DNA from: a virus
DNA: 64,000 nucleotides
Virus record (IMG/VR): IMGVR_UViG_3300035181_000471
Span: 1-64,000 of that record
Direction: 5' to 3' (one strand)
Positions within the stretch are counted from its first letter, which is position 1; every line of letters starts with the position of its first letter. The notes below the pieces were generated by a model. The model searched no databases and was not told where the DNA came from. It was given only the letters and a program-made list of their open reading frames with translations. Shown here in pieces: positions 12,453 to 64,000 of this stretch. A program made the position numbers and the translations under genes.

Positions 12453-12461
12453 GAGTGGCTC

Positions 12462-13259
12462 CTATATGTTAACTTCAAGTTTTTCAAGACGCTTCTTAGG
12501 GGGAATCCTGGCGTCCTTAATACTAATACTGTAGGTTTTGGTCTCGTACTTGAACCAGTAGTTAGGATTGTAAAGAATCCCCTTTTTGATGATCTTCTGG
12601 TTGCGTCCTTTACCCTTTACAACATCAGAGAAGTCACACAAAGCAAGCATAACTTTCTCCGGCATGGTCTTGATATCTTGGCCTAAGAATAGATCACTAG
12701 CATGACGGCCAAACTGACCCAATAAGACTGCATCGCAGGCGTCTGAATCAATCCCTGGATACTCAATTGCATTGGCGTATTCGTGCGCCTTACGGATGTT
12801 CTCGTGTTTATTATTACCCTTCTCCACTAGGCCAAGGCAAGAGCGCAGGGTCATAGCATTGATATGCATGACACACACTTCCTTGAAGGCGTGAGTGACT
12901 GAAGGTAGGACTTTGGATTGGATGATTTTGTTTACAATGTTGAGCCAGTCGTTGCCTGGAGTTGGAGCTTCAAGTGAAATAATCAGGCCCTTCTCAGAGT
13001 CAGCGTGAGCCAGGATAGAGGTGGTGATAAAATCAGCCATCATCACAGAACGAACCCACACGGGATAACTAGAATCGGCTGGCTTCAAGGATTTAATTAG
13101 TTCCCACTTAGGGCCATCAACGGTGTTTGTCATGACCGCTAGTCCTGTTCTGCTTAGCGAGGGGTCAATGCCGACAATCACCCATTCATTCATGTCTCTT
13201 GGAGTAGGGATTTTTACTTTGTCATCGAAGGTTAGTTTTGGTTTTGCTACTCTTGCCAT
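12462..13259 (-). CDS. RuvC-like nuclease (RNase H fold)
   Basis: 265 residues. Residues 26-43 carry the first RNase H-fold strand with catalytic D (VGIDPSLSRTGLA), followed by E in ISLEAP and the final acidic pair in DSDACDAVLL near 150-158, the spacing of RuvC-type resolvases. Probably resolves branched DNA during replication or packaging. Lysine-rich C-terminus. A strong GGAG precedes the ATG. Ends in TAG overlapping the ribosome site of the recA-like gene. Confidence 0.8.
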   Translation of the reverse strand: MARVAKPKLTFDDKVKIPTPRDMNEWVIVGIDPSLSRTGLAVMTNTVDGPKWELIKSLKPADSSYPVWVRSVMMADFITTSILAHADSEKGLIISLEAPTPGNDWLNIVNKIIQSKVLPSVTHAFKEVCVMHINAMTLRSCLGLVEKGNNKHENIRKAHEYANAIEYPGIDSDACDAVLLGQFGRHASDLFLGQDIKTMPEKVMLALCDFSDVVKGKGRNQKIIKKGILYNPNYWFKYETKTYSISIKDARIPPKKRLEKLEVNI

Positions 13260-53654: not shown

Positions 53655-53729
53655 TGGCGGGGGATGAGAGATTCGAACTCCCAGGCGTGGATTTGGAGTC
53701 CACTCGTTTAGCCATTAACGGAATCCCCC
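53655..53729 (-). tRNA. tRNA-Trp(CCA)
   Basis: Seven-bp acceptor GGGGGAT/ATCCCCC, G discriminator, encoded CCA; anticodon loop CTCCAAA. Last gene of the array in transcription order. Confidence 0.93.
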
Positions 53730-53754
53730 GTAACTAAATAAGAATAACATGAAT

Positions 53755-53829
53755 TGGAGCCTAAGGAGGGAGTTGAACCCTCTTTCCATCCTTACCAAAG
53801 ATGTGTAATAGCCGTTATACTACAGAGGC
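53755..53829 (-). tRNA. tRNA-Thr(GGT)
   Basis: Loop TTGGTAA, encoded CCA. Two mismatches in the acceptor stem (positions 5 and 6). Confidence 0.85.
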
Positions 53830-53862
53830 ATTGAGGTGAGGGGACTGCCCCCTCACTAGGGA

Positions 53863-54474
53863 TTACAGAAGTTCGAAGTTTCTGTGGTACCAGAAACCGT
53901 CTTGGAAAGTGTTCATAATGGCAACAGCGGTAATCTTGTTGTCCATGTCTGGCTCTCTCCAAATTGTTTTGTATTCGCCAGGACCAGTCTTCCCAGAGAG
54001 ATCTTTGCTACTGGCGTAAGGACTAGTGTCCTTTTTAGGAGTCATTAGGATGAGAGTCCCATTGGTCCAAGGAGCGAGTGGATGCTCCTTTTGAAACTGT
54101 GCGGCGGCGTGACTAGCCTGGACAACCTTTTGTGAGGTCGAGAGACTTGGATCGACAACGATGTAAAGCTTTTTGGCTCCAGGGTTGTTGAGGTAGGTCT
54201 TGAAGTGTTGAATCCCGGCCTGCATTGGGGCTAGAAGGGCCTTGTATTCTCTTTGCTTGCCTTCGGTATAGGGTAGGGTCTCACAAGGGCCTTTAGCCTT
54301 GTGTCCCGCTAATCCGCGAATCAGAGCGCGATGCTCACTGAGAGCGATATGGAGCATTCTGATTTCGGTTCTAAGGCCACCTTGCTTCTTGTGCTTTTCG
54401 ATAAGCAGTCTGAGCAAGAGTCTAGCGTTGAAGTAAGCTTCTTTTTGTTCCTGAGTGTAAGTGACATAAGCCAT
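53863..54474 (-). CDS. PTH2-like protein, 203 residues
   Basis: Start at 54474 with AAAGGAGA upstream. Residues about 100-200 resemble peptidyl-tRNA hydrolase 2: KLYIVVDPSLSTSQKVVQAS followed by HAA and AAQF, a conserved dyad of that fold, then a strand with TLILM. The N-terminal 95 residues are helical and have no PTH2 counterpart. A peptidyl-tRNA or tRNA-binding role suits its place inside the tRNA array but is not proven. Confidence 0.55.
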   Translation of the reverse strand: MAYVTYTQEQKEAYFNARLLLRLLIEKHKKQGGLRTEIRMLHIALSEHRALIRGLAGHKAKGPCETLPYTEGKQREYKALLAPMQAGIQHFKTYLNNPGAKKLYIVVDPSLSTSQKVVQASHAAAQFQKEHPLAPWTNGTLILMTPKKDTSPYASSKDLSGKTGPGEYKTIWREPDMDNKITAVAIMNTFQDGFWYHRNFELL

Positions 54475-54575
54475 GTTTTTCTCCTTTAGAATGGTTGGCT
54501 GGTTTGTTAGCGGCAACTTCTAAGGATGGCTTATGGTGAGCGTGATGGCACCTAGAGGTGATTTCTCCCGGTCAT

Positions 54576-54583
54576 ATTATACT
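54576..54583 (-). promoter_or_regulatory. AGTATAAT box without GAAA element
   Basis: An octamer identical to the promoter core, about 100 nt upstream of the PTH2-like gene and downstream of the CUA tRNA. The upstream GAAA is missing, so it is a weaker candidate. Confidence 0.35.
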
Positions 54584-54602
54584 CCTTTATGGTTAAGTAA
54601 AA

Positions 54603-54680
54603 TGGTGCCCTCGGAGGAATTCGAATCCCCGATCAAGGTTTTAGAGACCCCAGCTTTAGGCCAGACTAAGCTACGAGGGC
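54603..54680 (-). tRNA. Amber suppressor tRNA (anticodon CUA)
   Basis: Full cloverleaf: acceptor GCCCTCG/CGAGGGC, D stem GCTT/AAGC, anticodon stem GGGGT/ACCTT with seven-base loop CTCTAAA (anticodon CTA), T arm GGGGA-TTCGAAT-TCCTC, A discriminator and encoded CCA. The loop differs by one base from the Trp loop CTCCAAA at 60592. Two pairs of the anticodon stem are G-U. The charged amino acid cannot be read from the sequence. It would decode UAG. Confidence 0.85.
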
Positions 54681-54687
54681 TAGTAAC

Positions 54688-55050
54688 CTAGACTTCTGGG
54701 ATGATTAGAGGCTCAATCTGGCTTAGATCATTGGGAGTCAACTTGACATCACCAAAGGCGGCAAGAGGGAGTGGTTCGAAGGGGACTTCAATCTCAGTGG
54801 TTAGAAGCTCGGTCATTGCGGCGGTAAAACCAGGACCATCTTCAGGTGAAAAGACGAACTGGGTCTTGTCATCATTCAACACACCGTTGAACTTCTCAAT
54901 GAGCTTCTGTCTTTCCGTGTCGAAAGTAGCCATCTCAGCGATCAGCACCTTGGCTAAACGAGAGATCTGGTATGATGTCTTAGTAGGGAACACCTTGTCG
55001 TAAATGGTTGAACCTAGAATGGACTGAATTTCTTGAATCTTTAGCTTCAT
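54688..55050 (-). CDS. Hypothetical helical protein, 120 residues
   Basis: AGGAG upstream of the ATG and a GAAA-N13-AGTATCAT site 16 nt before it. Helical first half. Ends in TAG directly before the CUA tRNA. No family recognised. Confidence 0.65.
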   Translation of the reverse strand: MKLKIQEIQSILGSTIYDKVFPTKTSYQISRLAKVLIAEMATFDTERQKLIEKFNGVLNDDKTQFVFSPEDGPGFTAAMTELLTTEIEVPFEPLPLAAFGDVKLTPNDLSQIEPLIIPEV

Positions 55051-55065
55051 GTTAACTCCTAAAAT

Positions 55066-55093
55066 ATGATACTGCTTAAACTGGTCTTTCTGG
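55066..55093 (-). promoter_or_regulatory. Bipartite phage promoter candidate
   Basis: AGACCAGAAA, 13 nt, AGTATCAT, 16 nt upstream of the 120-residue gene, overlapping the end of the metallopeptidase-like gene. Confidence 0.45.
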
Positions 55094-55573
55094 TCTCATA
55101 CCTTTAAATTTCTCTGGGTATGTTTTCAAAAGGAATTTTCTGGTTTCGGCTTCTTGCTTAAGCGCGCTTTTTTCAAGAGTTCGATCTTTCCAAGGAAGGT
55201 CTTTCTCTTCGTCTACAATGGAGATAAATCTATCAACTCCAAAAACTATATATGCATCGAAGGCGTGGTCTAGTTCGTGAGCGATAATTGGTTCAAGTTT
55301 TTCACGCTTCAAATTGATCTCGTTCCAGTCGAAAGTAATCTCGGCTCTATCATGGAAAATGGCGGTCTGGGCTAGTGTGTTACCCTTTAAATCCCCGATC
55401 TTCCAAGTGATAGGCACGGGAATGGCCTTTAATCTGGCGTTATCAGCGGGTGATAGCTGAAGTAGAGTTTCTAAAGCGGTCTGAATTTGTTGCTGTGGAG
55501 TAGGCTGAGGCTTACAAGTCACTAAAAGAAGGACCGTAAGGGTCGCCAGACATAGCTTGCTGAGTGTGTGCAT
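55076..55573 (-). CDS. Putative lipoprotein zinc metallopeptidase, 165 residues
   Basis: N-terminal signal with a hydrophobic stretch ending LLLVTC20, an imperfect lipobox. Residues 99-103 read HELDH, the HExxH zinc motif, in a region with a further E about 40 residues later. A secreted, membrane-anchored peptidase is plausible. A second HExxH protein lies at 5305-5985; they are not similar otherwise. Confidence 0.6.
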   Translation of the reverse strand: MHTLSKLCLATLTVLLLVTCKPQPTPQQQIQTALETLLQLSPADNARLKAIPVPITWKIGDLKGNTLAQTAIFHDRAEITFDWNEINLKREKLEPIIAHELDHAFDAYIVFGVDRFISIVDEEKDLPWKDRTLEKSALKQEAETRKFLLKTYPEKFKGMRPERPV

Positions 55574-55613
55574 ATGAGCCTCAACATAGAAATAGAAATT
55601 AGTTATTTTTTTT

Positions 55614-55699
55614 TGGCGGAAGCGATAGGAATTGAACCTACAACCCTGTTACGGGCGACAGTTTTCGAGACTGCTTGTCATGCCAGTGACCACGCTTCC
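55614..55699 (-). tRNA. tRNA-Ser(CGA)
   Basis: Class II fold with long variable arm, loop CTCGAAA, G discriminator, encoded CCA. Confidence 0.9.
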
Positions 55700-55734
55700 G
55701 TGATATTGTGACTCCACCGGACACGGTATTTCGC

Positions 55735-55807
55735 GCCAACCTAGTCCGAATCGAACGGATTATAGCCCCGAAAAGCTCTTTGGTTCTCCCGTAAGGAGTC
55801 AAGGCGT
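55735..55807 (-). tRNA. Degenerate tRNA-like remnant
   Basis: A T-loop sequence (TTCGATT) and a D-arm-like CTCC/GGAG hairpin are present but acceptor strands do not pair. The rest of 55700-55890 shows no gene. Probably a decayed tRNA. Confidence 0.3.
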
Positions 55808-55890
55808 GAATGGACTTAGGAGGTCTGAATCGCATCTTATAGCCGTCTGCTAAACTGCATCTATTCAGTTCGTTCGTTCAGGTCACAAAT

Positions 55891-55964
55891 TGGAGCGGGA
55901 TAGGGGGCTTGAACCCCTGACACTAGCTCGGCAAGCTAAAGTTTTACCACTAAACTAATCCCGC
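55891..55964 (-). tRNA. tRNA-Gly(GCC)
   Basis: Acceptor GCGGGAT/ATCCCGC, loop TTGCCGA, encoded CCA. Confidence 0.93.
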
Positions 55965-55966
55965 AA

Positions 55967-56054
55967 TGGCGGAAGATAAGGGAATCGAACCCTTTAGGCT
56001 GTTATACCTTCACTTTAGCAAAGTGACGCACCTCTCCAACTGTGCCGATCTTCC
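55967..56054 (-). tRNA. tRNA-Ser(GCT)
   Basis: Class II, loop TTGCTAA, G discriminator, encoded CCA; two bases from the Gly tRNA. Confidence 0.92.
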
Positions 56055-56060
56055 ATGATT

Positions 56061-56138
56061 TGGTAATCCCAGCGGGATTTGAACCCGCATTCTCACCTTG
56101 AGAGGGTGGCGTCCTGGCCTGAGTTAGACGATGGGACT
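56061..56138 (-). tRNA. tRNA-Glu(CTC)
   Basis: Resembles bacterial tRNA-Glu (TCGTCTA D arm); loop CTCTCAA; one mismatch at the base of the anticodon stem; encoded CCA. Confidence 0.85.
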
Positions 56139-56142
56139 GTCG

Positions 56143-56964
56143 TTACTGGTGTATCTTGTGTCGCCTATCATTAAAGGAGAACTCAATATACTCTACTTTC
56201 TGGTTACCAGTGAATTTAGTCTTGAATTGTTCAATATATTTATTAGCTTTGCCCTTTTTGACATATGCTATTGTAGTATGAGGCGCATAGTCAGGGAATG
56301 AATTGGCGTTATCTGGGTAGACTTCATTGCAATAATCGAATAAATCCTGGAGTTCTGGACTCTTTTCAACCTTTATAATGAGAACATCGTATGGTGCATC
56401 AGCGGGAGTGAACTGGCTTAAACCTAACCACTCAACCGACTTGACTTCTAGGCTTGGGTTGAACTTGTCTGGTGTTTGGTCCTTAATTCCGTAGAGACAA
56501 GTAATGTGGGGGTAGTCCTCTTTTCCCTTGATCTCTCCATCGGTGTAGACATCCTCTGGATCAACACTTTCAACGAACTCTAGAATTTTCTTAGTGACCT
56601 CTGGAGCGTAAGTCAACTGCACTGTGCTGTAGTCGTAAGCGGCTTGCTTTGTAAGGAGTCTGGCGAAAAAGGTTAGGAACCCCTTTTTACCACCTTGGCC
56701 GTAAGCTCTATCGTGATCGCCTTGAACACTAAGAATGAACAAAACTCCTTCATCAACCTTACACACGGCTCTTATTCCTTGGGATACTCGGATGGAAAGG
56801 AAGCCTGGGTTAGACTTAATTGGTTCTAAGTGGGTTCCTGCCCCATCTCTTAGCTGTTGTTCAGTGGCCTCAGTGACTTTAATCCTCAGAGCATCAAGAA
56901 GACGCTTTATATTCGGATTCTTTTTTGCCTGTTTAGTAGCGTCTTTTCCAAGTTCCATTTGCAT
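56143..56964 (-). CDS. RelE/ParE-like toxin domain fused to a 2H phosphoesterase
   Basis: 273 residues. Residues 25-90 resemble RelE/ParE-type mRNA interferases: LEPIKSNPGFLSIRV, IRAVCKVD, VLFILSVQGDHDRAY. Residues 115-273 form a 2H phosphoesterase, with both catalytic motifs H153-I-T155 and H229-T-T231. 2H enzymes cleave 2'-5' or cyclic phosphodiesters; phage members include anti-CBASS nucleases, and others act in RNA repair. The combination in one chain, inside a tRNA array, is unusual. AGAGGG precedes the ATG. Confidence 0.75.
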   Translation of the reverse strand: MQMELGKDATKQAKKNPNIKRLLDALRIKVTEATEQQLRDGAGTHLEPIKSNPGFLSIRVSQGIRAVCKVDEGVLFILSVQGDHDRAYGQGGKKGFLTFFARLLTKQAAYDYSTVQLTYAPEVTKKILEFVESVDPEDVYTDGEIKGKEDYPHITCLYGIKDQTPDKFNPSLEVKSVEWLGLSQFTPADAPYDVLIIKVEKSPELQDLFDYCNEVYPDNANSFPDYAPHTTIAYVKKGKANKYIEQFKTKFTGNQKVEYIEFSFNDRRHKIHQ

Positions 56965-56975
56965 GTAAAGCCCTC

Positions 56976-57131
56976 TTATTCAGCGATGTAGCCAGCCTTG
57001 CGAAGAGCCTGCTTACCGCCAGCCTTGCGAAGAGCCTTGTAATCTTCGATTTCCTTGTTGTAACGAGCAACCTGCTCAGCGGTCAGAACGATCTCAGGCT
57101 CAGCGGTCTTCTTGTTCTTTTCGTTGGTCAT
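56976..57131 (-). CDS. Small basic protein with internal repeat, 51 residues
   Basis: GGAGGG sits 8 nt before the ATG, and a bipartite promoter candidate lies at 57148. The C-terminal half contains two copies of ALRKAG, encoded by an identical 18-base repeat. Charged helix otherwise. It ends 11 bases before the RelE-2H gene and could be its partner or antitoxin; that is inference from position only. Confidence 0.7.
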   Translation of the reverse strand: MTNEKNKKTAEPEIVLTAEQVARYNKEIEDYKALRKAGGKQALRKAGYIAE

Positions 57132-57147
57132 GTGTCCCTCCACTATT

Positions 57148-57175
57148 ATTATACCAGAGTTAAGTTGATTCTCTT
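57148..57175 (-). promoter_or_regulatory. Bipartite phage promoter candidate
   Basis: AGTAAGAGAA, 13 nt, GGTATAAT, 17 nt upstream of the 51-residue gene; probably drives it and the RelE-2H gene. Confidence 0.55.
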
Positions 57176-57190
57176 ACTAGAATTGAGAAG

Positions 57191-57358
57191 TTATTTGTTC
57201 CTGTGGGTCTTTTTCTTTCTGACCCCATGCCTAGGTTTGCGGGAAGCATTTTCATTGCGATGCCACTTGCAGTAGGGGCAACTGGCTTCTAGTTCTTTAT
57301 GCCTTTTGGCCCAGACCGTAGAGTTTTCGGTAGTGTCTAGTTCATTTTTGGCTTTCAT
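57191..57358 (-). CDS. Small cysteine-pair protein, 55 residues
   Basis: Start at 57358 with AGGAG upstream. Contains CPYCKWHRNEN, a CxxC zinc-like knuckle, and a strongly basic C-terminus. Nucleic-acid binding is likely; no family named. A longer in-frame extension runs through a tRNA and is rejected. Confidence 0.65.
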   Translation of the reverse strand: MKAKNELDTTENSTVWAKRHKELEASCPYCKWHRNENASRKPRHGVRKKKTHRNK

Positions 57359-57378
57359 AAAGCTCCTGGAATAATGGG

Positions 57379-57464
57379 TCCGTCCTAGGGGAGTCGAACC
57401 CCTTGTGCGTAAAATTACGCTGTGGTTTAAAAGACCACGGCCTGAACCGTGCGGCAAAGGACGG
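57379..57464 (-). tRNA. Class II tRNA with anticodon TTT
   Basis: Acceptor CCGTCCT/AGGACGG, anticodon stem GTGGT/ACCAC, loop CTTTTAA. The variable region forms a 5-bp stem (GCGTA/TACGC), as in Leu/Ser/Tyr tRNAs, although TTT is a Lys anticodon. The 3' end reads ACCCA, not ACCA. Confidence 0.75.
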
Positions 57465-57486
57465 ATAATGGTGCTATTTGTGTTTT

Positions 57487-57560
57487 TGGTAGCCACTTGC
57501 AGAATCGAACTGCAAACTCTTCCATGTCGAAGAAGCGGTATCCCACTTACCTAAGCGGCT
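57487..57560 (-). tRNA. tRNA-Val(GAC) with C33
   Basis: Loop TCGACAT between stem CTTCT/GGAAG puts C at position 33 instead of the near-universal U. Encoded CCA. Confidence 0.85.
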
Positions 57561-57573
57561 ATTTTAATTCACT

Positions 57574-57634
57574 GGGTAGTTGCATTCACCCATCCGGTAG
57601 GGACACCTGTTTTCAAAATCCCGGCTTGTCAAGC
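57574..57634 (-). ncRNA. Structured spacer RNA candidate
   Basis: Fills the gap between two tRNAs. Hairpins GCTTGACAAGC, GGGA/TCCC and GGGT/ACCC; no T-loop or CCA, so not a standard tRNA. Confidence 0.4.
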
Positions 57635-57645
57635 TCCTTTAATAG

Positions 57646-57730
57646 TGGTGCGGATAGAGGGAGTCGAACCCCCATGCCGTTAGGCGCTGGCTTCTAAGAC
57701 CAGTTTGTCTACCAATTCCAACATACCCGC
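57646..57730 (-). tRNA. tRNA-Leu(TAG)
   Basis: Normal class II fold, loop CTTAGAA, encoded CCA. Confidence 0.92.
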
Positions 57731-57736
57731 ATCGAA

Positions 57737-57811
57737 TGGAGCCTCTAAGGGGAATCGAACCCCTATCGTCTGATTACGAAACAGACATAATTGCCATTAT
57801 ACTACAGAGGC
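57737..57811 (-). tRNA. tRNA-Thr(CGT)
   Basis: Loop TTCGTAA; T-T mismatch closing the loop; acceptor GCCTCTG shared with tRNA-Thr(GGT). Confidence 0.88.
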
Positions 57812-57841
57812 AAGAAGTAATTTAGTTGTCCAGTTAAATGT

Positions 57842-57916
57842 TGGTGTGACATGGGGGTTATGATCCCCCTCCGCGACTTTCACAGAGTCGTGTGCATCCG
57901 ATTACACCTATGTCAC
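57842..57916 (-). tRNA. tRNA-His(GTG)
   Basis: Loop CTGTGAA, encoded CCA. The base 5' of the acceptor is G, fitting G-1, but the discriminator is A instead of C. Confidence 0.9.
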
Positions 57917-57959
57917 CGTCTGGGGAATGAAGGACCACCTGTCCTAAATTCCGATTCTA

Positions 57960-58038
57960 TGGCGGTTCGTACGGGATTTGAACCCGTGATCTTTTGCGTG
58001 ACAGGCAAATGGGGACGGCCAGACTCCCCTAACGAACC
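57960..58038 (-). tRNA. tRNA-Asp(GTC)
   Basis: Loop CTGTCAC, G discriminator, encoded CCA. A hairpin-rich 43-base spacer precedes it. Confidence 0.93.
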
Positions 58039-58040
58039 AT

Positions 58041-58117
58041 TGGTACCCCCGGTAGGACTCAAACCTACATAATTCACCGTGTAAAGATGATGCCTAATCT
58101 CTCGGCGTCACAGGGGC
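58041..58117 (-). tRNA. tRNA-Val(TAC)
   Basis: Loop TTTACAC, T arm GTAGG/CCTAC, encoded CCA; first acceptor pair G-U. Confidence 0.88.
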
Positions 58118-58125
58118 ATTGATGT

Positions 58126-58201
58126 TGGAGCCGAATATCAGAATTGAACTGATCTCTCTGCGTTACAAGGGCAGAATAATTATCCACTATACTAATCCGG
58201 C
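58126..58201 (-). tRNA. tRNA-Thr(TGT)
   Basis: Loop CTTGTAA with a C-C mismatch closing it; encoded CCA. Confidence 0.85.
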
Positions 58202-58208
58202 ATGATAT

Positions 58209-58279
58209 TGGAAGGGCTGTAGGGAATCGAACCCTATCTGTTCGCTTCAAAGGCGAATCTGTCATCCTGTCTCAACCCT
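58209..58279 (-). tRNA. tRNA-Gln(TTG)
   Basis: Stem TTCGC/GCGAA, loop CTTTGAA, encoded CCA; short D arm (71 nt total). Confidence 0.88.
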
Positions 58280-58280
58280 A

Positions 58281-58378
58281 TGGTTTCACACCTGAGCCGT
58301 CAAGCCCCAATCTCCCTAGCCCATCAAGCCGTATGGAAGACAATCGCTAGACTGATGAGATCCGTGCGATAGTGTGAA
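58281..58378 (-). ncRNA. 98-nt tRNA-like RNA with CCA end
   Basis: Perfect 7-bp acceptor-like stem TTCACAC/GTGTGAA, A, then encoded CCA, abutting tRNA-Asn on one side and tRNA-Gln on the other. Inside there is no TTCRA T-loop; GGCTTGAYGG occurs twice. A loop CTTCCAT (TCC) can be drawn but on a weak stem. May be a degenerate tRNA or a distinct stable RNA. Confidence 0.5.
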
Positions 58379-58460
58379 TGGCTCTCCATGTAGGAATCGA
58401 ACCTACTTAGCTTGCGCGACTGGTTAACAGCCAGTTACCGACCCGGACAGTATATGGAGA
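58379..58460 (-). tRNA. tRNA-Asn(GTT), first copy
   Basis: Stem ACTGG/CCAGT, loop CTGTTAA, G discriminator, encoded CCA. The variable loop is 12 nt, long for Asn. Confidence 0.88.
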
Positions 58461-58471
58461 ATGAATTTCTT

Positions 58472-58522
58472 AGATAGTGGCCGTTGATCCACTTACGCTC
58501 TGTCGCTCAGTGCAGAGTATCT
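58472..58522 (-). ncRNA. Structured spacer RNA candidate
   Basis: Closing helix AGATA/TATCT around two arms, CTCTG/CAGAG and AGTGG/CCACT. It starts 3 nt after a tRNA CCA end. No anticodon or T-loop. Confidence 0.4.
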
Positions 58523-58525
58523 GTT

Positions 58526-58601
58526 TGGTGCCTCAGATGGGAGTCGAACCCACAACCAATAGAGTAAGAGTCTACTGCTCGACCAATTGAGCTTCTGAAG
58601 C
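58526..58601 (-). tRNA. tRNA-Lys(CTT)
   Basis: Class I fold, loop CTCTTAC, encoded CCA. Confidence 0.92.
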
Positions 58602-58607
58602 ATAAAT

Positions 58608-58666
58608 ACAGCACCCGGCACACTGGCTCTTTTACGCATACGCGACCTGTAGCCTGACGGTGTTGT
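58608..58666 (-). ncRNA. Structured spacer RNA candidate
   Basis: Closing helix of 8 bp (ACAACACC/GGTGCTGT, one G-U) with inner GGCT/AGCC and CGC/GCG hairpins. Not a tRNA. Confidence 0.4.
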
Positions 58667-58671
58667 GATTT

Positions 58672-58733
58672 TGGTGGATACAGTGGGTATTGAACCCACC
58701 TAGGGAGCTACCCTACTCGCCTTGAGTGTACCC
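58672..58733 (-). tRNA. Truncated tRNA lacking a D arm
   Basis: Acceptor GGGTACA/TGTATCC, T arm GTGGG-TTCAATA-CCCAC, A discriminator and CCA are intact, but only 27 nt lie between acceptor and T arm, too few for a D arm. Anticodon unresolved. Probably non-functional. Confidence 0.45.
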
Positions 58734-58740
58734 ATGATCG

Positions 58741-58825
58741 GTGATCCCAAGGGGAGTCGAACCCCTACAGTCGAGGACGCCTGGGTAAGAGCCAGGGGTG
58801 GTAGCCAGTTGCCACTATTGGGACC
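58741..58825 (-). tRNA. tRNA with Lys anticodon CTT and long variable arm
   Basis: Stem CCTGG/CCAGG, loop CTCTTAC; variable region with a GTC/GAC stem; 3' end ACCG, not ACCA. Second CTT tRNA in the array. Confidence 0.75.
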
Positions 58826-58902
58826 GTAATTTGCGGCTCTAGGAACCCATCTTCCTAAATTTGATCCTGTCATGCAGGAACCGCCTATTTTTAAAGTTGC
58901 CA

Positions 58903-59259
58903 CTATTTCCAGAGTTTAAAGTTGGTAATTTCATCTTCCGCATTGGAAAGAGCATCCTCAAGGGAGGAGACTTCGGTTTCAAGATGAGAGATACGGCCTT
59001 CAAGAACTGAGAGAACTATTGCAAGACGCTCGGAAACCGTTCCATTCCAAATACCTGGAGTGTCGGGGAACATCCCACAGAGGGGGAGAATCAAGTCACT
59101 GCACTTGGTAAAGTCAGCGTAGACGGCATCTACTTCGTCCAGGGCGACCATTGCTTCCTTGGTGAAGAGTAGCATCTCGTTGGACTCAGGGTCAAAACGA
59201 GTGAGATCCTTGATGTTCTCATCAAGAGCTTCTCGGATCAGTGCAAGCTTTTCGGACAT
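58903..59259 (-). CDS. Helical protein in tRNA array, 118 residues
   Basis: Start at 59259 with GGAGG 6 nt upstream; an exact bipartite promoter copy lies at 59276. Two helical regions, the C-terminal one a coiled coil (about 80-115). Ends in TAG. No family recognised. Confidence 0.7.
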   Translation of the reverse strand: MSEKLALIREALDENIKDLTRFDPESNEMLLFTKEAMVALDEVDAVYADFTKCSDLILPLCGMFPDTPGIWNGTVSERLAIVLSVLEGRISHLETEVSSLEDALSNAEDEITNFKLWK

Positions 59260-59275
59260 GAGTGCCTCCATAGTT

Positions 59276-59303
59276 ATTATACTCGGAAGCTTCGTGTTTT
59301 CTT
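59276..59303 (-). promoter_or_regulatory. Bipartite phage promoter candidate
   Basis: AGTAAGAAAA, 13 nt, AGTATAAT, 17 nt before the 118-residue gene. Upstream decamer, spacing and octamer are identical to the site at 1555. Confidence 0.62.
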
Positions 59304-59313
59304 ACTGTTTATT

Positions 59314-59387
59314 TGGTGGAGCCGGGGAGAATCGAACTCCCGATATCTGGATGCAAACCAGAGGTTATCCCTCTTAACTACGACCCC
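59314..59387 (-). tRNA. tRNA-Ala(TGC), first copy
   Basis: Stem TCTGG/CCAGA, loop TTTGCAT, encoded CCA. Confidence 0.92.
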
Positions 59388-59392
59388 AAAGC

Positions 59393-59473
59393 TAGACACA
59401 TTGTTGGCATTCTTTGAAGAGGAACACGCCAAGACTCTTGTTCAGGGGTTATGGGTTGCTGTTGATGTGTCTA
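59393..59473 (-). ncRNA. Structured spacer RNA with ACAGCAAC
   Basis: Perfect 9-bp closing helix TAGACACAT/ATGTGTCTA, with ACAGCAACC just inside the 5' strand and an inner TTGGC/GCCAA hairpin. The same motif after the 5' strand of a closing helix occurs at 61619 and 63841. Confidence 0.5.
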
Positions 59474-59499
59474 AGGGCTTAAGCACTACACTTAGGCTT

Positions 59500-59573
59500 T
59501 GGAGCGGGTTACGAGATTCGAACTCGTTTCGACAGCTTGGAAGGCTGAGGCACAACCCATATACCAAACCCGC
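59500..59573 (-). tRNA. tRNA-Gly(TCC), first copy
   Basis: Acceptor GCGGGTT/AACCCGC, loop CTTCCAA, encoded CCA. Confidence 0.92.
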
Positions 59574-59583
59574 TTAGGCTACT

Positions 59584-60282
59584 TCACTTCTTAATACTCA
59601 ACTTATCAAGCTCTCGATGAAGAGCTTTCAACTTTTTTGCGACTGCTGGAGCTTCCTCTTCCATAGTGTGTTCATGCCACTCTTGGCTAGGACTACTGTG
59701 TGAGTTAGTATTAAGATCCCACCACTTCTCAAGCTCGTCGATTTTAGCTTTAATTTTTTCGATCTTGTCTTTTCGAACCTCAGGGAATTCTTGGAAGGTG
59801 ATGGCGTAATCGTCCTTGTCACCCACATAGGTTCTTCCAAAGTTTACCCAGTTCTCAACATTTCTGAGTTCTTTGTAGTGTTGACCCCAGATGTAGTCTA
59901 CACCCAGCTTCTCAGGGATGGATCTTAGTTGTCTTCCTGCTCCGTAAGCACGGTATTCAGGTAGAACAAAGATTGCAACACCTTTGATACCAGTCTTGTT
60001 TTCCAAGCCGTGGACGCCTAGCTCAACTAAATCAGAGGCGGGTTTCTTCTCTTTCTTCAAGAAGTAGCCACCAATAATCTGTCCATCAGCAAGCGCAACA
60101 TAACAATTACTGAAGTTATTGCCCATTTCTTCTTTGATTTCAGTCTTTACATCCTCTTCTGATAGCCCTAAGGACTCTTTAAAGGACTTAAAACAGACAT
60201 TTAAAGCTTCAGCTACTTCGCTACGCTTCATCTTTCTGATCTGGATATCAAAGGCTGTCTTGGTGAGTAAGGTGGAAATCAT
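59584..60282 (-). CDS. GNAT-family acetyltransferase-like protein, 232 residues
   Basis: Start at 60282, since a longer frame would run through a tRNA. Motif A of the GNAT fold is visible as VAIFVLPEYRAYGAGRQL (about 105-122), where the G-A-G turn binds acetyl-CoA. The C-terminal 60 residues are charged coiled coil. In a tRNA array an aminoacyl-tRNA or ribosomal target is conceivable, as for toxin GNATs, but no partner is seen. Confidence 0.7.
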   Translation of the reverse strand: MISTLLTKTAFDIQIRKMKRSEVAEALNVCFKSFKESLGLSEEDVKTEIKEEMGNNFSNCYVALADGQIIGGYFLKKEKKPASDLVELGVHGLENKTGIKGVAIFVLPEYRAYGAGRQLRSIPEKLGVDYIWGQHYKELRNVENWVNFGRTYVGDKDDYAITFQEFPEVRKDKIEKIKAKIDELEKWWDLNTNSHSSPSQEWHEHTMEEEAPAVAKKLKALHRELDKLSIKK

Positions 60283-60319
60283 TGTGTTCTCTCTATTGAG
60301 AAATAGAAAGTTAAAAGAT

Positions 60320-60396
60320 TGGTAGTCCCAACGGGATTCGAACCCGTGATAGCCACATTGAAAGTGTGGTGCCTTAAGCCGCTTGGCTATGAGACT
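60320..60396 (-). tRNA. tRNA-Glu(TTC)
   Basis: Stem CCACA/TGTGG, loop CTTTCAA, encoded CCA. Confidence 0.9.
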
Positions 60397-60403
60397 ACGA
60401 ATT

Positions 60404-60507
60404 TGATCATCTGGATGGAGTCGAACCATCGGCCACCCGGAGTCCCCTGCAATTTGGTCCTTAACCGTGAGAGGTGGTGCGCTCTGACCGCTGAGCTACA
60501 AATGATT
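60404..60507 (-). tRNA. tRNA-like gene with insertion in the anticodon region
   Basis: Acceptor TCATTTG/CAGATGA, a classic D arm (GCTC/GAGC) and T arm GATGG-TTCGACT-CCATC are intact, but 49 nt replace the usual anticodon arm plus variable loop. CCACC/GGTGG can enclose most of it. 3' end CAA, no encoded CCA. Anticodon unresolved. Confidence 0.5.
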
Positions 60508-60508
60508 G

Positions 60509-60586
60509 GTGTCCGTGGTCGGATTCGAACCGACAGTCACGACCTTCTGAGGATCGTTGCGTTGCCAGAGATTAGCATACACGGAC
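60509..60586 (-). tRNA. Class I tRNA with Leu anticodon CAG
   Basis: Stem CGATC/GGTCG, loop CTCAGAA, encoded CCA. The variable loop is only 5 nt, whereas bacterial Leu tRNAs have long arms. Confidence 0.75.
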
Positions 60587-60591
60587 ATGAT

Positions 60592-60665
60592 TGGCGAGAG
60601 TGCCAGGGGTCAAACCGGGGCCAAAGATTTTGGAGACCTTCATGCTATCGTAACACCTCACTCCC
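60592..60665 (-). tRNA. tRNA-Trp(CCA), second copy, divergent T arm
   Basis: Acceptor GGGAGTG/CACTCTC, loop CTCCAAA, G discriminator, CCA. T loop TTTGACC is non-standard with a stem mismatch. Confidence 0.65.
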
Positions 60666-60676
60666 ATGAGTAAATT

Positions 60677-60740
60677 TTGCAGAGTTATTGGCATATCTGC
60701 AACCTCCTTATGCAAAACCTACTGCGATCCCTACTGGGAT
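60677..60740 (-). ncRNA. Spacer with two perfect hairpins
   Basis: TTGCAGA/TCTGCAA (7 bp) and ATCCC/GGGAT (5 bp) between tRNA-Pro and the second tRNA-Trp. No gene seen. Confidence 0.35.
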
Positions 60741-60754
60741 TCTAGGTGGAGTAT

Positions 60755-60831
60755 TGGTCGGCCACAAGTGATTCGAACACTTGACCCCTTGCTCCCGAAG
60801 CAAGTGCGCTACCAGACTGCGCCAGTGGCCG
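60755..60831 (-). tRNA. tRNA-Pro(CGG)
   Basis: Stem CTTGC/GCAAG, loop TTCGGGA, encoded CCA. Confidence 0.93.
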
Positions 60832-60841
60832 TTAATTTTAT

Positions 60842-60928
60842 TGGTCGGTGTGACAGGAATCGAACCTGCGTTTGTCCCTAATGGACCTAGCACCCCAAGC
60901 TAGTGGTCAACCATTGACCCACACACCG
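60842..60928 (-). tRNA. tRNA-Pro(GGG) with long variable arm
   Basis: Stem CTAGC/GCTAG, loop TTGGGGT, encoded CCA. A 17-nt variable region forms GTCC/GGAC, unusual for Pro. Confidence 0.85.
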
Positions 60929-60957
60929 AATTTCGTAACTCTGAATGAAATTTGAAT

Positions 60958-61032
60958 TGGTCGGGGTGAGAGGAATTGAACCTCCTACTACTCCCATCCA
61001 AAGAGAGGCGTCTACCGATGACTTACACCCCG
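60958..61032 (-). tRNA. tRNA-Pro(TGG)
   Basis: Loop TTTGGAT, acceptor CGGGGTG/CACCCCG, encoded CCA. Confidence 0.92.
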
Positions 61033-61144
61033 GTATTTTTAAGATGAATGGGGACTTTTTAGTCTTTGGATTAGTTTTAGACCATCCACATTCACAACAC
61101 ACTGGCCCATGTTTTTTAATGAGCAAAGTTCTTTCATAGTTCAA
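61033..61144 (-). pseudogene. Truncated HNH endonuclease remnant
   Basis: About 35 codons from 61144 read like the start of an HNH endonuclease: YERTLLIKKHG, a CxxCGW knuckle (CCECGW) and SKTNPKTKKSP, then the frame runs into tRNA-Pro without the H-N-H core. Indicates a lost mobile endonuclease gene between tRNAs. Confidence 0.55.
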
Positions 61145-61154
61145 CCTACTTTAT

Positions 61155-61229
61155 TGGTAGCCCTACCTGGGATCGAACCAGAATCTAACGATTATCGGTC
61201 GTTTGCACTAGCCATTGTGCTATAGGGCC
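61155..61229 (-). tRNA. tRNA-Ile(GAT) with C33
   Basis: Stem AACGA/TCGTT, loop CCGATAA, so position 33 is C. Encoded CCA. Confidence 0.87.
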
Positions 61230-61278
61230 AATTTGGAGGCGGTCCCTCCAGCAAAGAGGGCGCTTATCCGGCGTTGGC

Positions 61279-61354
61279 TGGTGGAGCCATCGGGAGTTCA
61301 ACCCGATCCACTAGACTGCGAAACTAGTATGCCACGCCTCAACACTTTGGCCCC
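61279..61354 (-). tRNA. tRNA-Ala(CGC)
   Basis: Acceptor GGGGCCA/TGGCTCC, loop TTCGCAG with a T-T closing mismatch, encoded CCA. The 49-base gap after it holds GGAGG and CCCTC hairpins only. Confidence 0.8.
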
Positions 61355-61356
61355 AT

Positions 61357-61432
61357 TGGAGCGTCTGACCGGACTTGAACCGGCTCCCTGAGTTTGGAAG
61401 ACTCTAGTGCTACCATTAAACACCACAGACGC
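61357..61432 (-). tRNA. tRNA-Gly(TCC), second copy
   Basis: Acceptor GCGTCTG/CAGACGC, loop CTTCCAA, encoded CCA. Confidence 0.92.
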
Positions 61433-61440
61433 ATTGAAAT

Positions 61441-61516
61441 TGGTGGATCTGACAGGGATCGAACCTGCCACCTACTGGATGCAAACCAGTCGCTCTCCCA
61501 AATGAGCTACAGACCC
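61441..61516 (-). tRNA. tRNA-Ala(TGC), second copy
   Basis: Stem ACTGG/CCAGT, loop TTTGCAT, encoded CCA. Confidence 0.92.
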
Positions 61517-61531
61517 GTGTTTGTCTCTTAT

Positions 61532-61610
61532 TGGTGCAGGTAACGGGAGTCGAACCCGCAAAAACACAGCCTTCTCAGAACTGCCGCAATACCAAATAGC
61601 GTATACCTGC
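61532..61610 (-). tRNA. Class I tRNA with Leu anticodon GAG
   Basis: Stem CAGTT/GGCTG, loop CTGAGAA, 7-nt variable loop, encoded CCA. Like the CAG tRNA it lacks the class II arm expected for Leu. Confidence 0.75.
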
Positions 61611-61618
61611 ATAGATAC

Positions 61619-61694
61619 AAGACTCTCTTTTTTCAAGGCAGGATTACCTGCGGCATCCCCATTAACAGGAGAATTTTGGTTGCTGTAAGAGTCT
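61619..61694 (-). ncRNA. Structured spacer RNA with ACAGCAAC
   Basis: Closing helix AAGACTCT/AGAGTCTT starting at the CCA end of tRNA-Phe; ACAGCAACCAAAA inside; arms TCTCC/GGGGA (loop TGTTAAT) and GCAGG/CCTGC. No T-loop. Closest relative is 63841-63898. Confidence 0.5.
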
Positions 61695-61770
61695 TGGTGC
61701 CTTAGGTTGGAGTTGAACCAACCACACAAGGATTTTCAGTCCTTTGCTCTACCACCTGAGCTACTAAGGC
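61695..61770 (-). tRNA. tRNA-Phe(GAA), first copy
   Basis: Stem AAGGA/TCCTT, loop CTGAAAA, encoded CCA. Confidence 0.93.
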
Positions 61771-61787
61771 ATGATAAAAATTTGCGA

Positions 61788-61828
61788 GTGTGACTTACAT
61801 TGACTCCCAAGGTCACACAGACTGTAAG
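61788..61828 (-). ncRNA. Spacer hairpin region
   Basis: Mutually exclusive helices GTGTGAC/GTCACAC and CTTACA/TGTAAG between the two Phe tRNAs. No gene seen. Confidence 0.3.
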
Positions 61829-61848
61829 CCTACCTTTTTTCACAAAAT

Positions 61849-61927
61849 TGGTGGAGGATACCGGAATCGAACCGATTTCTATTCCTTTTCAGGGAATCGC
61901 TGGAATGACCACACTAGCTCACCCTCC
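61849..61927 (-). tRNA. tRNA-Phe(GAA), second copy
   Basis: Stem ATTCC/GGAAT, loop CTGAAAA, encoded CCA. Sequence differs from the first Phe tRNA throughout, so not a recent duplicate. Confidence 0.87.
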
Positions 61928-61944
61928 ATGATATTTAGATGAAT

Positions 61945-62029
61945 TGGTGGAACATGATGGGAATCGAACCCATAACCTCTGCACGGCATTGCGCCCAAAC
62001 AGTGTGCTTACCAAAGCCACTTCAGCCCC
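61945..62029 (-). tRNA. Atypical tRNA, anticodon unresolved
   Basis: Good T arm (ATGGG-TTCGATT-CCCAT), A discriminator and CCA, but only five acceptor pairs and no clean anticodon stem. Cys (GCA) or Pro readings can be drawn; neither is convincing. Cys is otherwise missing from the array. Confidence 0.5.
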
Positions 62030-62035
62030 ATATAT

Positions 62036-62110
62036 TGGTGGAGCTACGGGGAGTCGAACCCCGAACTTTTGGATGCCGTCCAAATGTGTTCCCGCTAGCA
62101 CTATAGCCCC
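62036..62110 (-). tRNA. tRNA-Ala(GGC) with C33
   Basis: Stem TTTGG/CCAAA, loop ACGGCAT, so position 33 is C. Encoded CCA. Confidence 0.87.
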
Positions 62111-62117
62111 ATGATGC

Positions 62118-62191
62118 TGGCTCCAAAAAGGGGAATCGAACCCCTGTCTCTGACTTAACAGGTCAGCATCCTACCATTGGATGATTTTGGA
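62118..62191 (-). tRNA. tRNA-Asn(GTT), second copy
   Basis: Stem CTGAC/GTCAG, loop CTGTTAA, G discriminator, encoded CCA. Confidence 0.92.
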
Positions 62192-62270
62192 ATAGTAAGG
62201 TCTCTCCCTTGTCAAGCCTGGATGATTAGCGGCTTTCCCTCCGAGGTTGGGTTGGACAGTGAATCGTTTT

Positions 62271-62981
62271 TTAGATTGCCTTCACTATCTCATTCGCCTG
62301 ATTTTTACAAACCCAGGTGTCCAACTTTTTAAGGACTAATTGTCCATGATCAAATTCCCAATGACAGTTGGGGCAAAGACCAACCAGATTATCGGGGGCA
62401 TTGATTTCTTTCAGTGTAGCGGAATCTGGGAAACTCATTACTGCTTGAATATGGCAGACCTCCACATGCTTACTATACCCACAATTAAAACAAGAATCGG
62501 TCTTGTGGCAAACACTAGCTATTCTTTGAGCGTGTTTTGTTATAACAGACCTAGCTCTCTGCCAATTAGTGCCACCGGATTCAGATTTCCCAAATAACTC
62601 TAACTTTGTTACATGGTCTCTTTTCCCTTTTAGGGGGTCTTTCTCTGCTTTAATCTTAACTACTTTTTCCTTTTTAGGTCTAAGTTTGTTATTGTAAGAG
62701 GCCGCGCAAGAGGTGGAACAGAAAATCCCGCTTTTAGTCTGAGATGGGACTCTGTGAAACTGCTTGGAACAGTTAAAACAAGAGACCTCTAATCGAGTTA
62801 TGTTATGATCGTGAAAGCATCGTTGGGAGCAGAATAATTTGATTTGCCCTCGTCTTTTCGATATAATTAAGTTGGCCTTAGATTGAGTGGTCTCTTTCCC
62901 ACACTGCTCACAAACTACAGGAATGCGATCTTTGTATTTCTTGTCCTTATATTCGATCAGCAGCGTTTCTAGTTGAGTCAT
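62271..62981 (-). CDS. HNH homing-type endonuclease with zinc knuckles
   Basis: 236 residues from the ATG at 62981 with GGGAGA upstream. Three N-terminal CxxC knuckles (CEQC, CFNC and CSQRC types) precede a C-terminal HNH domain: CFNCGYSKHVEVCHI (first H), APDNLVGLCPNCH (N and H). Free-standing HNH genes of this form spread between phages and often sit near tRNAs. The short helical N-terminus resembles an intron-type DNA-binding segment. The remnant at 61033-61144 suggests repeated invasion of the array. Confidence 0.88.
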   Translation of the reverse strand: MTQLETLLIEYKDKKYKDRIPVVCEQCGKETTQSKANLIISKRRGQIKLFCSQRCFHDHNITRLEVSCFNCSKQFHRVPSQTKSGIFCSTSCAASYNNKLRPKKEKVVKIKAEKDPLKGKRDHVTKLELFGKSESGGTNWQRARSVITKHAQRIASVCHKTDSCFNCGYSKHVEVCHIQAVMSFPDSATLKEINAPDNLVGLCPNCHWEFDHGQLVLKKLDTWVCKNQANEIVKAI

Positions 62982-63020
62982 AATTTCTCCCTCTATAATC
63001 AAGAGTTAGAAAGTCGATTT

Positions 63021-63095
63021 TGGTTGCGGGAGGTGGAATCGAACCACGCTTTCACTATGAGCTTATGAGACTCTAGGCCAACCTCTGGCCCCGCT
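63021..63095 (-). tRNA. Initiator-like tRNA-Met(CAT)
   Basis: 3' end CCCGCAACCA and an unpaired first acceptor position (A1-A72) match bacterial initiator tRNA; loop CTCATAA. The three G-C pairs usual in the initiator anticodon stem are absent, and the variable loop is long. Confidence 0.72.
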
Positions 63096-63105
63096 ATAAT
63101 TTTAT

Positions 63106-63180
63106 TGGTCCTCCAGGCAGGAATTGAACCCGCACTTCATGGTTCGAAGCCATGTGTTCTATCCGTTATACTACTGGAAG
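63106..63180 (-). tRNA. tRNA-Arg(TCG)
   Basis: Stem CATGG/CCATG, loop CTTCGAA, encoded CCA. Confidence 0.92.
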
Positions 63181-63205
63181 ATAATTTCTCGGCCTTGGGG
63201 TTGTG

Positions 63206-63294
63206 GCCCCTCGCTTGCGTCTGACTCCCTGCCATCAGTCAGAACCGTGTATAGAGCCGCTAAGTCTTCCTACCTACTCCATACGGAGAGGGGC
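63206..63294 (-). ncRNA. Multi-helix structured RNA candidate
   Basis: Perfect closing helix GCCCCTC/GAGGGGC around a CTCC/GGAG tetraloop hairpin and a 7-bp TCTGACT/AGTCAGA hairpin, in the 128-base gap between tRNA-Arg and tRNA-Ser. No tRNA features; the strongest non-tRNA fold in the array. Confidence 0.5.
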
Positions 63295-63308
63295 TCTCTT
63301 GTGCGGCA

Positions 63309-63396
63309 TGGCGGAAGATACAGGAATCGAACCTGCTTGCCTTTGACAGCCCATGCTTTCCAGGCATGTGTGACGCTCCTACTTCACCGATCTTCC
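63309..63396 (-). tRNA. tRNA-Ser(GGA)
   Basis: Class II, stem CATGC/GCATG, loop CTGGAAA, G discriminator, encoded CCA. The preceding 129 bases (63397-63525) hold an AGTATAGA-N13-GAAA-like site but no gene. Confidence 0.92.
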
Positions 63397-63525
63397 ATTC
63401 TATACTAGATACTGAAAGTTTTTCAATATCGTTTGGTGGTAATTTTAGAATTATTTTTTGTAAACAACTCAGACCTTTGCTCTTATTATCGGGCGGTCCG
63501 GCGAGAACCAATCTTCGTCTTTATG

Positions 63526-63603
63526 TGGCGAGGCATAGGGGATTCGAACCCCTGATCTCTTCGTAGACAGCGAAGCGGGAACTCCGGACTTCCCCAATAC
63601 CCC
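63526..63603 (-). tRNA. tRNA-Asp(GTC), second copy
   Basis: Stem CTTCG/CGAAG, loop CTGTCTA, G discriminator, encoded CCA. Confidence 0.9.
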
Positions 63604-63611
63604 ATGATAAT

Positions 63612-63686
63612 TGGTGCCAACAAAGGGATTCGAACCCTTGACAAGAAGCTTATGAGACTTCCCCCTCACCTTTCGGGCTTGCTGGC
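63612..63686 (-). tRNA. tRNA-Met(CAT), elongator-type or Ile2
   Basis: Stem GAAGT/GCTTC, loop CTCATAA, A discriminator, encoded CCA. CAT could also be a lysidine-modified Ile tRNA. Confidence 0.88.
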
Positions 63687-63689
63687 AAA

Positions 63690-63721
63690 GTGAGAGTTTT
63701 TAACTACCCAGTGGCTCTCAC
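63690..63721 (-). ncRNA. Spacer hairpin
   Basis: 7-bp GTGAGAG/CTCTCAC hairpin with an 18-nt loop between two tRNAs. No T-run. Confidence 0.3.
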
Positions 63722-63745
63722 ACTGGTCCTGGCCGTCCAAGTCAT

Positions 63746-63832
63746 TGGTACTCCTGACAGGATTCGAACCTGCGTTGGGCTTTCGCCGCACGGTTTCGTA
63801 GACCGTTACTAATCCATCTCAGTTACAGGAGC
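63746..63832 (-). tRNA. tRNA-Arg(ACG) with long variable arm
   Basis: Stem ACGGT/ACCGT, loop CTACGAA, encoded CCA. Variable region of 16 nt with GGC-GAAA-GCC hairpin, unusual for Arg. Confidence 0.85.
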
Positions 63833-63840
63833 ATAGAATC

Positions 63841-63898
63841 AAGACTCGTCTTTTAGTTTCATCTTAAGTGAAAGGTTTTTAGTTGCTGTGAGAGTCTT
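63841..63898 (-). ncRNA. Structured spacer RNA with ACAGCAAC
   Basis: Closing helix AAGACTC/GAGTCTT starting at the CCA end of tRNA-Tyr; ACAGCAACTAAAA inside; perfect arm TTTCA/TGAAA with the 7-base loop CTTAAGA, which would read as a Leu TAA anticodon. No T arm. Confidence 0.5.
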
Positions 63899-63992
63899 TG
63901 GTGACGCATGTAGGAATCGAACCTACTCAGGGCTTACTTGTGTGCCAACGGTTTTACAGACCGCCTCCGCTCTCCTACTCGGACGATGCGCC
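63899..63992 (-). tRNA. tRNA-Tyr(GTA)
   Basis: Class II with long variable arm, as expected for bacterial Tyr; loop CTGTAAA, encoded CCA. Confidence 0.92.
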
Positions 63993-64000
63993 ATAGACGA

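Follow-up and report, generated by a model that had tools for sequence, protein, structure and literature searches.

An amber-decoding transfer RNA (tRNA) at positions 54603–54680 of a 64,000-nucleotide stretch of viral DNA is likely, though by no means certain, to belong to a conserved two-part phage cassette that helps ribosomes waiting at UAG, its partner being an adjacent gene for a protein resembling peptidyl-tRNA hydrolase 2 (PTH2). The stretch, referred to as the window, comprises bases 1–64000 of the 221,217-bp IMG/VR virus record IMGVR_UViG_3300035181_000471 (G000, the 221-kb phage). Sequence comparison establishes the tRNA, its linkage to the gene and the repeated occurrence of both across many phages, and it shows that this phage is not recoded. 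UAG would still be its ordinary stop, with the cassette thought to aid ribosomes that stand there. The original prediction, made from the window alone, had described the tRNA and overlooked the adjacent PTH2-like gene, which is the more informative feature.

The amber tRNA, its neighbour and their recurrence

ARAGORN predicts a tRNA with boundaries at exactly these positions on the minus strand and assigns the anticodon CTA, the same as had been read from the loop CTCTAAA in the original prediction. Together with an end-to-end match to Rfam RF00005 (model positions 1–71 of 71; 55.4 bits, gathering score 29), this confirms the complete cloverleaf claimed there. The acceptor stem is paired at 7 of 7 positions, the D-arm is GCTT/AAGC, the T-loop is TTCGAAT, and the anticodon arm reads GGGGT-CTCTAAA-ACCTT, with a 7-nt loop and CUA at 34–36; the discriminator is A73 and the CCA end is encoded. 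The label ‘Pyl’ given by ARAGORN reflects the anticodon only. Anticodon and label are shared with tRNA-Pyl, which is defined by a single base between acceptor and D-stem and a short D-loop, whereas the window tRNA has two bases (UA) at 8–9, an 11-nt D-loop with GG and a body akin to phage Trp and Gln tRNAs, and in these respects is unlike tRNA-Pyl.

Directly downstream, across a gap of about 130 nt, the gene 53863–54516 encodes a helical N-terminal region followed by a C-terminal PTH2-like domain, with the PTH2 sequence pattern LYIxVRxDLSxSQKAVQASHAAAxF ... EPDxxNxITA. Pfam PTH2 matches become significant in more distant phage relatives (best E 1.8e-5 among seven relatives), and the relatives in Mycobacterium phage Cane17 and Salmonella phage Arash are annotated as peptidyl-tRNA hydrolase. 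Foldseek with an AlphaFold model returns archaeal and human PTH2 structures as its top plausible matches, namely 3erj (prob 0.95), 1wn2 (0.85), 2zv3 (0.77) and human bit1 1q7s (0.35). The partner is designated a putative PTH2-like peptidyl-tRNA hydrolase, the assignment for the window protein itself being remote.

The pairing extends far beyond this phage, to dozens that are unrelated to one another. IMG/VR was searched with the PTH2-like alignment only, and the 80 loci obtained form 49 clusters at 70% identity. A nonsense tRNA lies within 3 kb of the PTH2-like gene in 40 of the 49 clusters (38 CUA, 2 UUA), on the same strand in 100% of these and with a typical spacing of some tens to hundreds of bases. 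Of the 42 clusters having any tRNA, 36 have a nonsense tRNA as the nearest one. In the flanks of the PTH2-like loci, 40 of 140 tRNAs carry CUA and the runner-up anticodon occurs 7 times. For the association seen in the clusters, P is ~2e-48 if CUA occurred there at the roughly 2.3% that it usually makes up among phage tRNAs, with phylogeny not corrected. Starting from the tRNA, nine of ten phages chosen solely for an amber tRNA have the PTH2-like gene, the exception being the recoded phage G012, and the separations range from about 30 nt to 2.7 kb (approximate for G007, G015 and G016, where they derive from overlapping loci). As a control, 18 large tRNA-bearing phages were picked on a tRNA feature that has nothing to do with the pair. 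The gene is present in three of them, and each of these also has a same-strand CUA tRNA within 0.9 kb, which was not by design.

Cultured phages carry the pair as well. The CUA tRNA lies about 450 nt upstream of the PTH2-like gene in Acinetobacter phage ME3, 250 nt downstream of it in Cane17, where it is annotated ‘tRNA-OTHER’, and about 1 kb downstream in Arash, where the depositors annotated tRNA-Phe. The distance is 0.8 kb in LR756500 and about 2.2 kb in LR756501. UUA tRNAs, expected to read UAA as well as, through wobble, UAG, are found in Lak-B5 (L416:11347-11419), where the tRNA is beside the PTH2-like gene, and in phage RAS14 (L414 record). In several phages (L477, L570, L058), transfer-messenger RNA (tmRNA) genes lie about 0.1–1.0 kb from the amber tRNA or the PTH2-like gene, hinting at a larger ribosome-rescue cluster.

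The nearest cultured relative of the 221-kb phage is the Tunturiibacter (Acidobacteriota) phage Tunturi_5, with 45.5% identity over the whole terminase and 42.6% in the DNA polymerase, a relationship from which an acidobacterial host appears likely. More distant uncultured relatives were reached through terminase and RecA searches, while the gene 54688–55050 upstream of the tRNA, used as a search route, led to none; the RecA proteins of G020, G019 and G022 are 54–57% identical to that of the 221-kb phage. An amber tRNA stands directly upstream of a homologous PTH2-like gene in the 221-kb phage, G020/G019, G022 and locus L411 (39–45% identity), and in G020, G019 and G022 the next same-strand gene after the CUA tRNA is homologous to 53863–54516 at 39–43% identity. 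Tunturi_5 (308.7 kb) and the fragments G002 and G018 lack the tRNA and the gene alike. In G020 the CUA anticodon and the neighbouring gene are retained despite a tRNA body unrelated to that of the window, which points to selection acting on the tRNA–hydrolase pair. Decayed tRNAs do occur in large phage arrays (60595–60665 is an example), and the amber tRNA could in principle be such an incidental or non-functional passenger. Its fold and CCA are intact, however, anticodon and partner are kept though the tRNA body is replaced, and the pair occurs in some 40 phage clusters, all of which makes a passenger very improbable.

The closest sequences to the amber tRNA are phage tRNA-Trp genes, with Rhodococcus phage Peregrin at 85.5% over 55 nt. 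The original prediction had placed its anticodon arm one base from a Trp loop at 60592. A Trp-type loop, CTCCAAA, does exist in the tRNA at 60595–60665, but the whole tRNA is no one-base variant, the two bodies differ, and this local Trp(CCA)-type tRNA was ruled out as the parent. The reading of the body as that of a Trp tRNA was likewise discarded: it arose from a biased pattern, and an anticodon-free scan finds this D-arm in tRNAs for Gln, Trp, Asp, Ile, Met and Pro alike. Among members with the shared D-arm, G73 is present in 18 of 18 distinct Trp and all Gln tRNAs and in 0 of 6 amber tRNAs (5 A, 1 U). G73 is required by the bacterial tryptophanyl- and glutaminyl-tRNA synthetases (TrpRS, GlnRS), lysyl-tRNA synthetase (LysRS) uses A73 and U35, and several U35 amber suppressors insert Lys (PMC9976931). 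The combination of A73 and U35 would thus argue against charging with Gln or Trp and, since it fits LysRS, makes Lys a first guess for the window tRNA, held with low confidence. Naive-Bayes isotype calling was 75% accurate and was not relied on. A conserved amino-acid identity was rejected because amber tRNAs linked to PTH2 differ in their discriminators. What stays constant among these tRNAs, for all the variation in discriminator base and body, is the nonsense anticodon and the hydrolase partner; UAG decoding plus peptidyl-tRNA hydrolysis, and not the amino acid, is therefore probably the point of the cassette.

TAG as a stop codon in the 221-kb phage

At least 13 genes had been listed in the original prediction as ending in TAG, and the window had been called not fully recoded. 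The gene ends are real: TAG terminates 15 of 71 hand-picked minus-strand genes of the window and 28 of the 169 non-overlapping open reading frames (ORFs) of 100 aa or more across the entire record (TAA 106, TGA 35). The second statement is borne out by reading TAG as sense, which changes coding coverage from 0.916 to 0.931 and mean ORF length from 360 to 368 aa, compared with 0.588 to 0.903 and 161 to 356 aa in G012, the positive control, a recoded phage found by its amber tRNA. Across the loci that carry the pair, TAG as sense clearly lengthens the mean ORF in only 1 of 40, the loci being short and this evidence weak. Phage release factor 2 occurs in some TAG-recoded phages; in G000 no match to PF00472, the release factor family, was found. 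Tunturi_5, which is without the amber tRNA, has more frequent TAG stops (93 of 284 counted).

Comparison of genes for in-frame TAG, proposed in the original prediction, was carried out as a protein-versus-DNA comparison among six related genomes. Of the 3381 homology alignments, not one runs across an in-frame TAG within genuine coding sequence of the 221-kb phage; those that do cross stops are low-complexity or opposite-strand matches. Suppressor tRNAs with a CTA anticodon (Sup-CTA) are common in recoded phages (52.4% of code-15 phages, PMC11210395), which would favour a partial recoding of TAG (genetic code 15). Neither coverage nor ORF lengths improve with TAG as sense, however, and TAG interrupts no homologous gene; partial recoding is refuted for the sequence at hand and keeps next to no probability.

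Programmed readthrough would use the amber tRNA to produce C-terminally extended phage proteins, perhaps late in infection, with the hydrolase merely clearing drop-off products. Two TAG-ended genes are in frame with the next gene, the RuvC-like 12462–13259 with RecA 11214–12452, and 135882–137249 with 137262–138701. RecA starts a few codons past the RuvC-like TAG, and a single readthrough would fuse both (11214–13259). About one third of neighbours are expected in frame anyway, however, the annotation of Tunturi_5 places RuvC and RecA in different frames, and the RuvC orthologues of G020, G022 and G018 end in TAA. Extended proteins from single TAG genes, including RuvC–RecA, were rejected on these grounds, the frame being unconserved and orthologues ending in TAA. 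TAG shows no regional bias, and in-silico readthrough in Xanthomonas phage XacN1 was also without result (PMC5852040).

The next in-frame stop beyond UAG lies at a median of 12 codons in the 221-kb genome, and back-up (tandem) stops after TAG are not enriched in G000, the next in-frame stop being equally distant as after other stops (p=0.97). Avoidance of TAG in the late half of G000 was not seen, both halves being alike (p=0.83). The suggestion in the original prediction that suppression acts late or yields extended proteins is therefore not supported, and programmed readthrough is considered unlikely. Because no alignment crosses TAG, orthologues of TAG-ended genes use TAA, TGA or TAG interchangeably, back-up stops are unenriched and TAG as sense gains nothing, the 221-kb phage displays, as far as its sequence reveals, neither recoding nor visible programmed extension. 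A separate asymmetry concerns TGA, which is depleted as a stop in the late/structural half of G000 (6 of 72 ORFs in 109000–221217 vs 29 of 97 in 1–109000, p=0.0005).

Possible roles of the pair

The pairing suggests a shared two-part device acting where translation ends. Ribosomes would wait at UAG, for example when infection leaves release factor 1 (RF1) scarce or damaged. A charged tRNA-CUA would enter the A site and accept the peptide, after which translation would continue to the next in-frame stop or the peptidyl-tRNA would drop off. The PTH2-like enzyme would then cleave the dropped-off peptidyl-tRNA, freeing peptide and tRNA. The choice of amino acid would hardly matter in such a sequence of events, which fits the variable discriminators. 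In a bolder form, the completed peptide would pass to the nonsense tRNA and be cut off by a PTH2-like hydrolase dedicated to this task, providing RF1-independent termination at UAG in many phage lineages; this form is speculative and probably incorrect.

Several observations weigh against assistance at UAG by such a pair. Cellular peptidyl-tRNA hydrolases work off the ribosome, and release at UAG would need drop-off or an unusual enzyme. The window protein has no Pfam PTH2 (PF01981) match of its own, and homologues with E=0.043 and 0.18 fall short of the cut-off. The AlphaFold model is moderate (predicted local distance difference test, pLDDT, 62.7), and the Foldseek E-values exceed 0.01, although the match types agree. 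No nonsense tRNA lies closer than 3 kb in 9 of the 49 PTH2-like clusters of the survey, 7 of those 9 being without any tRNA, and the fragment G038 has an amber tRNA without the PTH2-like gene. XacN1 and RAS14 hold both gene and amber tRNA, but not adjacent to each other (PMC5852040).

The main rival is a regulatory or counter-defence pair, in which the enzyme would deacylate or destroy the charged amber tRNA (or act on another substrate), either as a regulated switch or as a decoy against ribosome-dependent toxins or anticodon nucleases. The tight same-strand linkage is consistent with this, as are the variable discriminators, the amino acid not being the conserved feature, and a role of jumbo-phage PTH2 in ribosome rescue after tRNA cleavage has been proposed (PMC7824862). 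Taken alone, however, such a pair leaves the specific CUA (rarely UUA) anticodon unexplained, and it is rated as doubtful. A further alternative is an attack on host translation, in which readthrough of host UAG codons would disturb the proteome while the hydrolase, sometimes with a phage tmRNA, would shield the phage. Genes for tmRNA near the cassette in G011, G015 (locus L058) and G041 speak for it. Most such phages keep TAG stops, however, with no back-up enrichment in G000, so that the attack would also mean self-harm, and no tmRNA was found in the G000 pieces; the probability of an attack of this kind is judged to be low.

Surrounding features and relation to known systems

The cassette is embedded in a large tRNA array (Table 1). 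Several class I tRNAs in the array have long variable arms of class II type, namely Lys UUU (57375–57465), Asn GUU (58379–58460), Lys CUU (58740–58825), Pro GGG (60842–60928) and Arg ACG (63746–63832). Similar tRNAs are found in G020, G022, G019, G002 and Tunturi_5 (Lys, Thr, Asn, Arg, Ile, Gln, Cys), and the long arms could protect against tRNA-cutting defences. In the tRNA 60406–60505, about 27 nt are inserted into the anticodon region (the ARAGORN intron mode reads Val CAC with an intron of 41 nt), and relatives contain Rfam tRNA matches of 100 nt (G001:48148-48247, G002:63139-63238). Outside the array, the phage protein encoded by 26869–27954 matches the Pfam family Volactin, a haloarchaeal actin, at 157 bits.

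Table 1 Coordinates of the amber tRNA, its partner gene and the surrounding tRNAs in the window.
Feature	Position	Strand	Basis
Amber-decoding tRNA, anticodon CUA, A73, G1-C72, encoded CCA	54603..54680	(-)	ARAGORN, Rfam RF00005, structure
Putative PTH2-like gene, protein ~203 aa, likely start 54474 (MAYVTYTQEQ...)	53863..54516	(-)	Conservation, weak Pfam, Foldseek
Weak second tRNA, Trp(CCA)-type, loop CTCCAAA	60595..60665	(-)	Rfam 35.7 bits; missed by ARAGORN
tRNA array, ~44 tRNA genes, contains the cassette; further Gln(CUG) just past the window edge	53655..64000	(-)	ARAGORN/Rfam

XacN1 offers the closest parallel in a standard-code phage, with one or more CUA tRNAs among its many tRNAs, TAG retained as a stop (18 cases) and no readthrough target (PMC5852040). 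Its authors list ORF295 as a peptidyl-tRNA hydrolase on its own, without connecting it to the suppressor; the PTH2-like match found here is ORF364, an HD-like fusion away from the tRNAs. In XacN1 as in RAS14, an HD-like domain precedes the PTH2-like domain as an N-terminal fusion (L413:11557-12396, L414:11611-12396). Code-15 phages (Crassvirales, Lak megaphages) likewise carry CUA tRNAs, and in Lak-B5 a UUA tRNA lies 0.6 kb upstream of the PTH2-like gene; TAG is sense inside their genes, however, and only a stop in the 221-kb phage, and the recoded G012 is without the PTH2-like gene. The PTH2 proteins of jumbo phages (Iyer et al. 2021, PMC7824862; phrog_3668, phrog_1866) belong to the same domain family and have been proposed to act in ribosome rescue, while the passages of that paper that were found mention no link to a nonsense-suppressor tRNA. 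Phage Lera has an apparently inactive Sup-CTA in a non-recoded genome (PMC12386605), and for Atu_ph07 an opal suppressor and two putative peptidyl-tRNA hydrolases are described in the same section, unlinked (PMC6102473). No paper connecting a phage amber tRNA with PTH2 was found in the open-access literature, subscription papers not being searchable. Amber tRNAs in standard-code phages are thus known from XacN1, and the PTH2-like neighbour provisionally appears to be new.

In conclusion, a Sup-CTA tRNA by itself is no evidence of code 15. The suppressor tRNAs of non-recoded phages have so far been unexplained, and the readthrough targets sought by the authors of XacN1 were not found (PMC5852040). 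Their near-constant partnership with a PTH2-like hydrolase provides a testable hypothesis that bears on termination, ribosome rescue and phage–host conflict, for which the cultured phages Cane17, ME3 and Arash exist.
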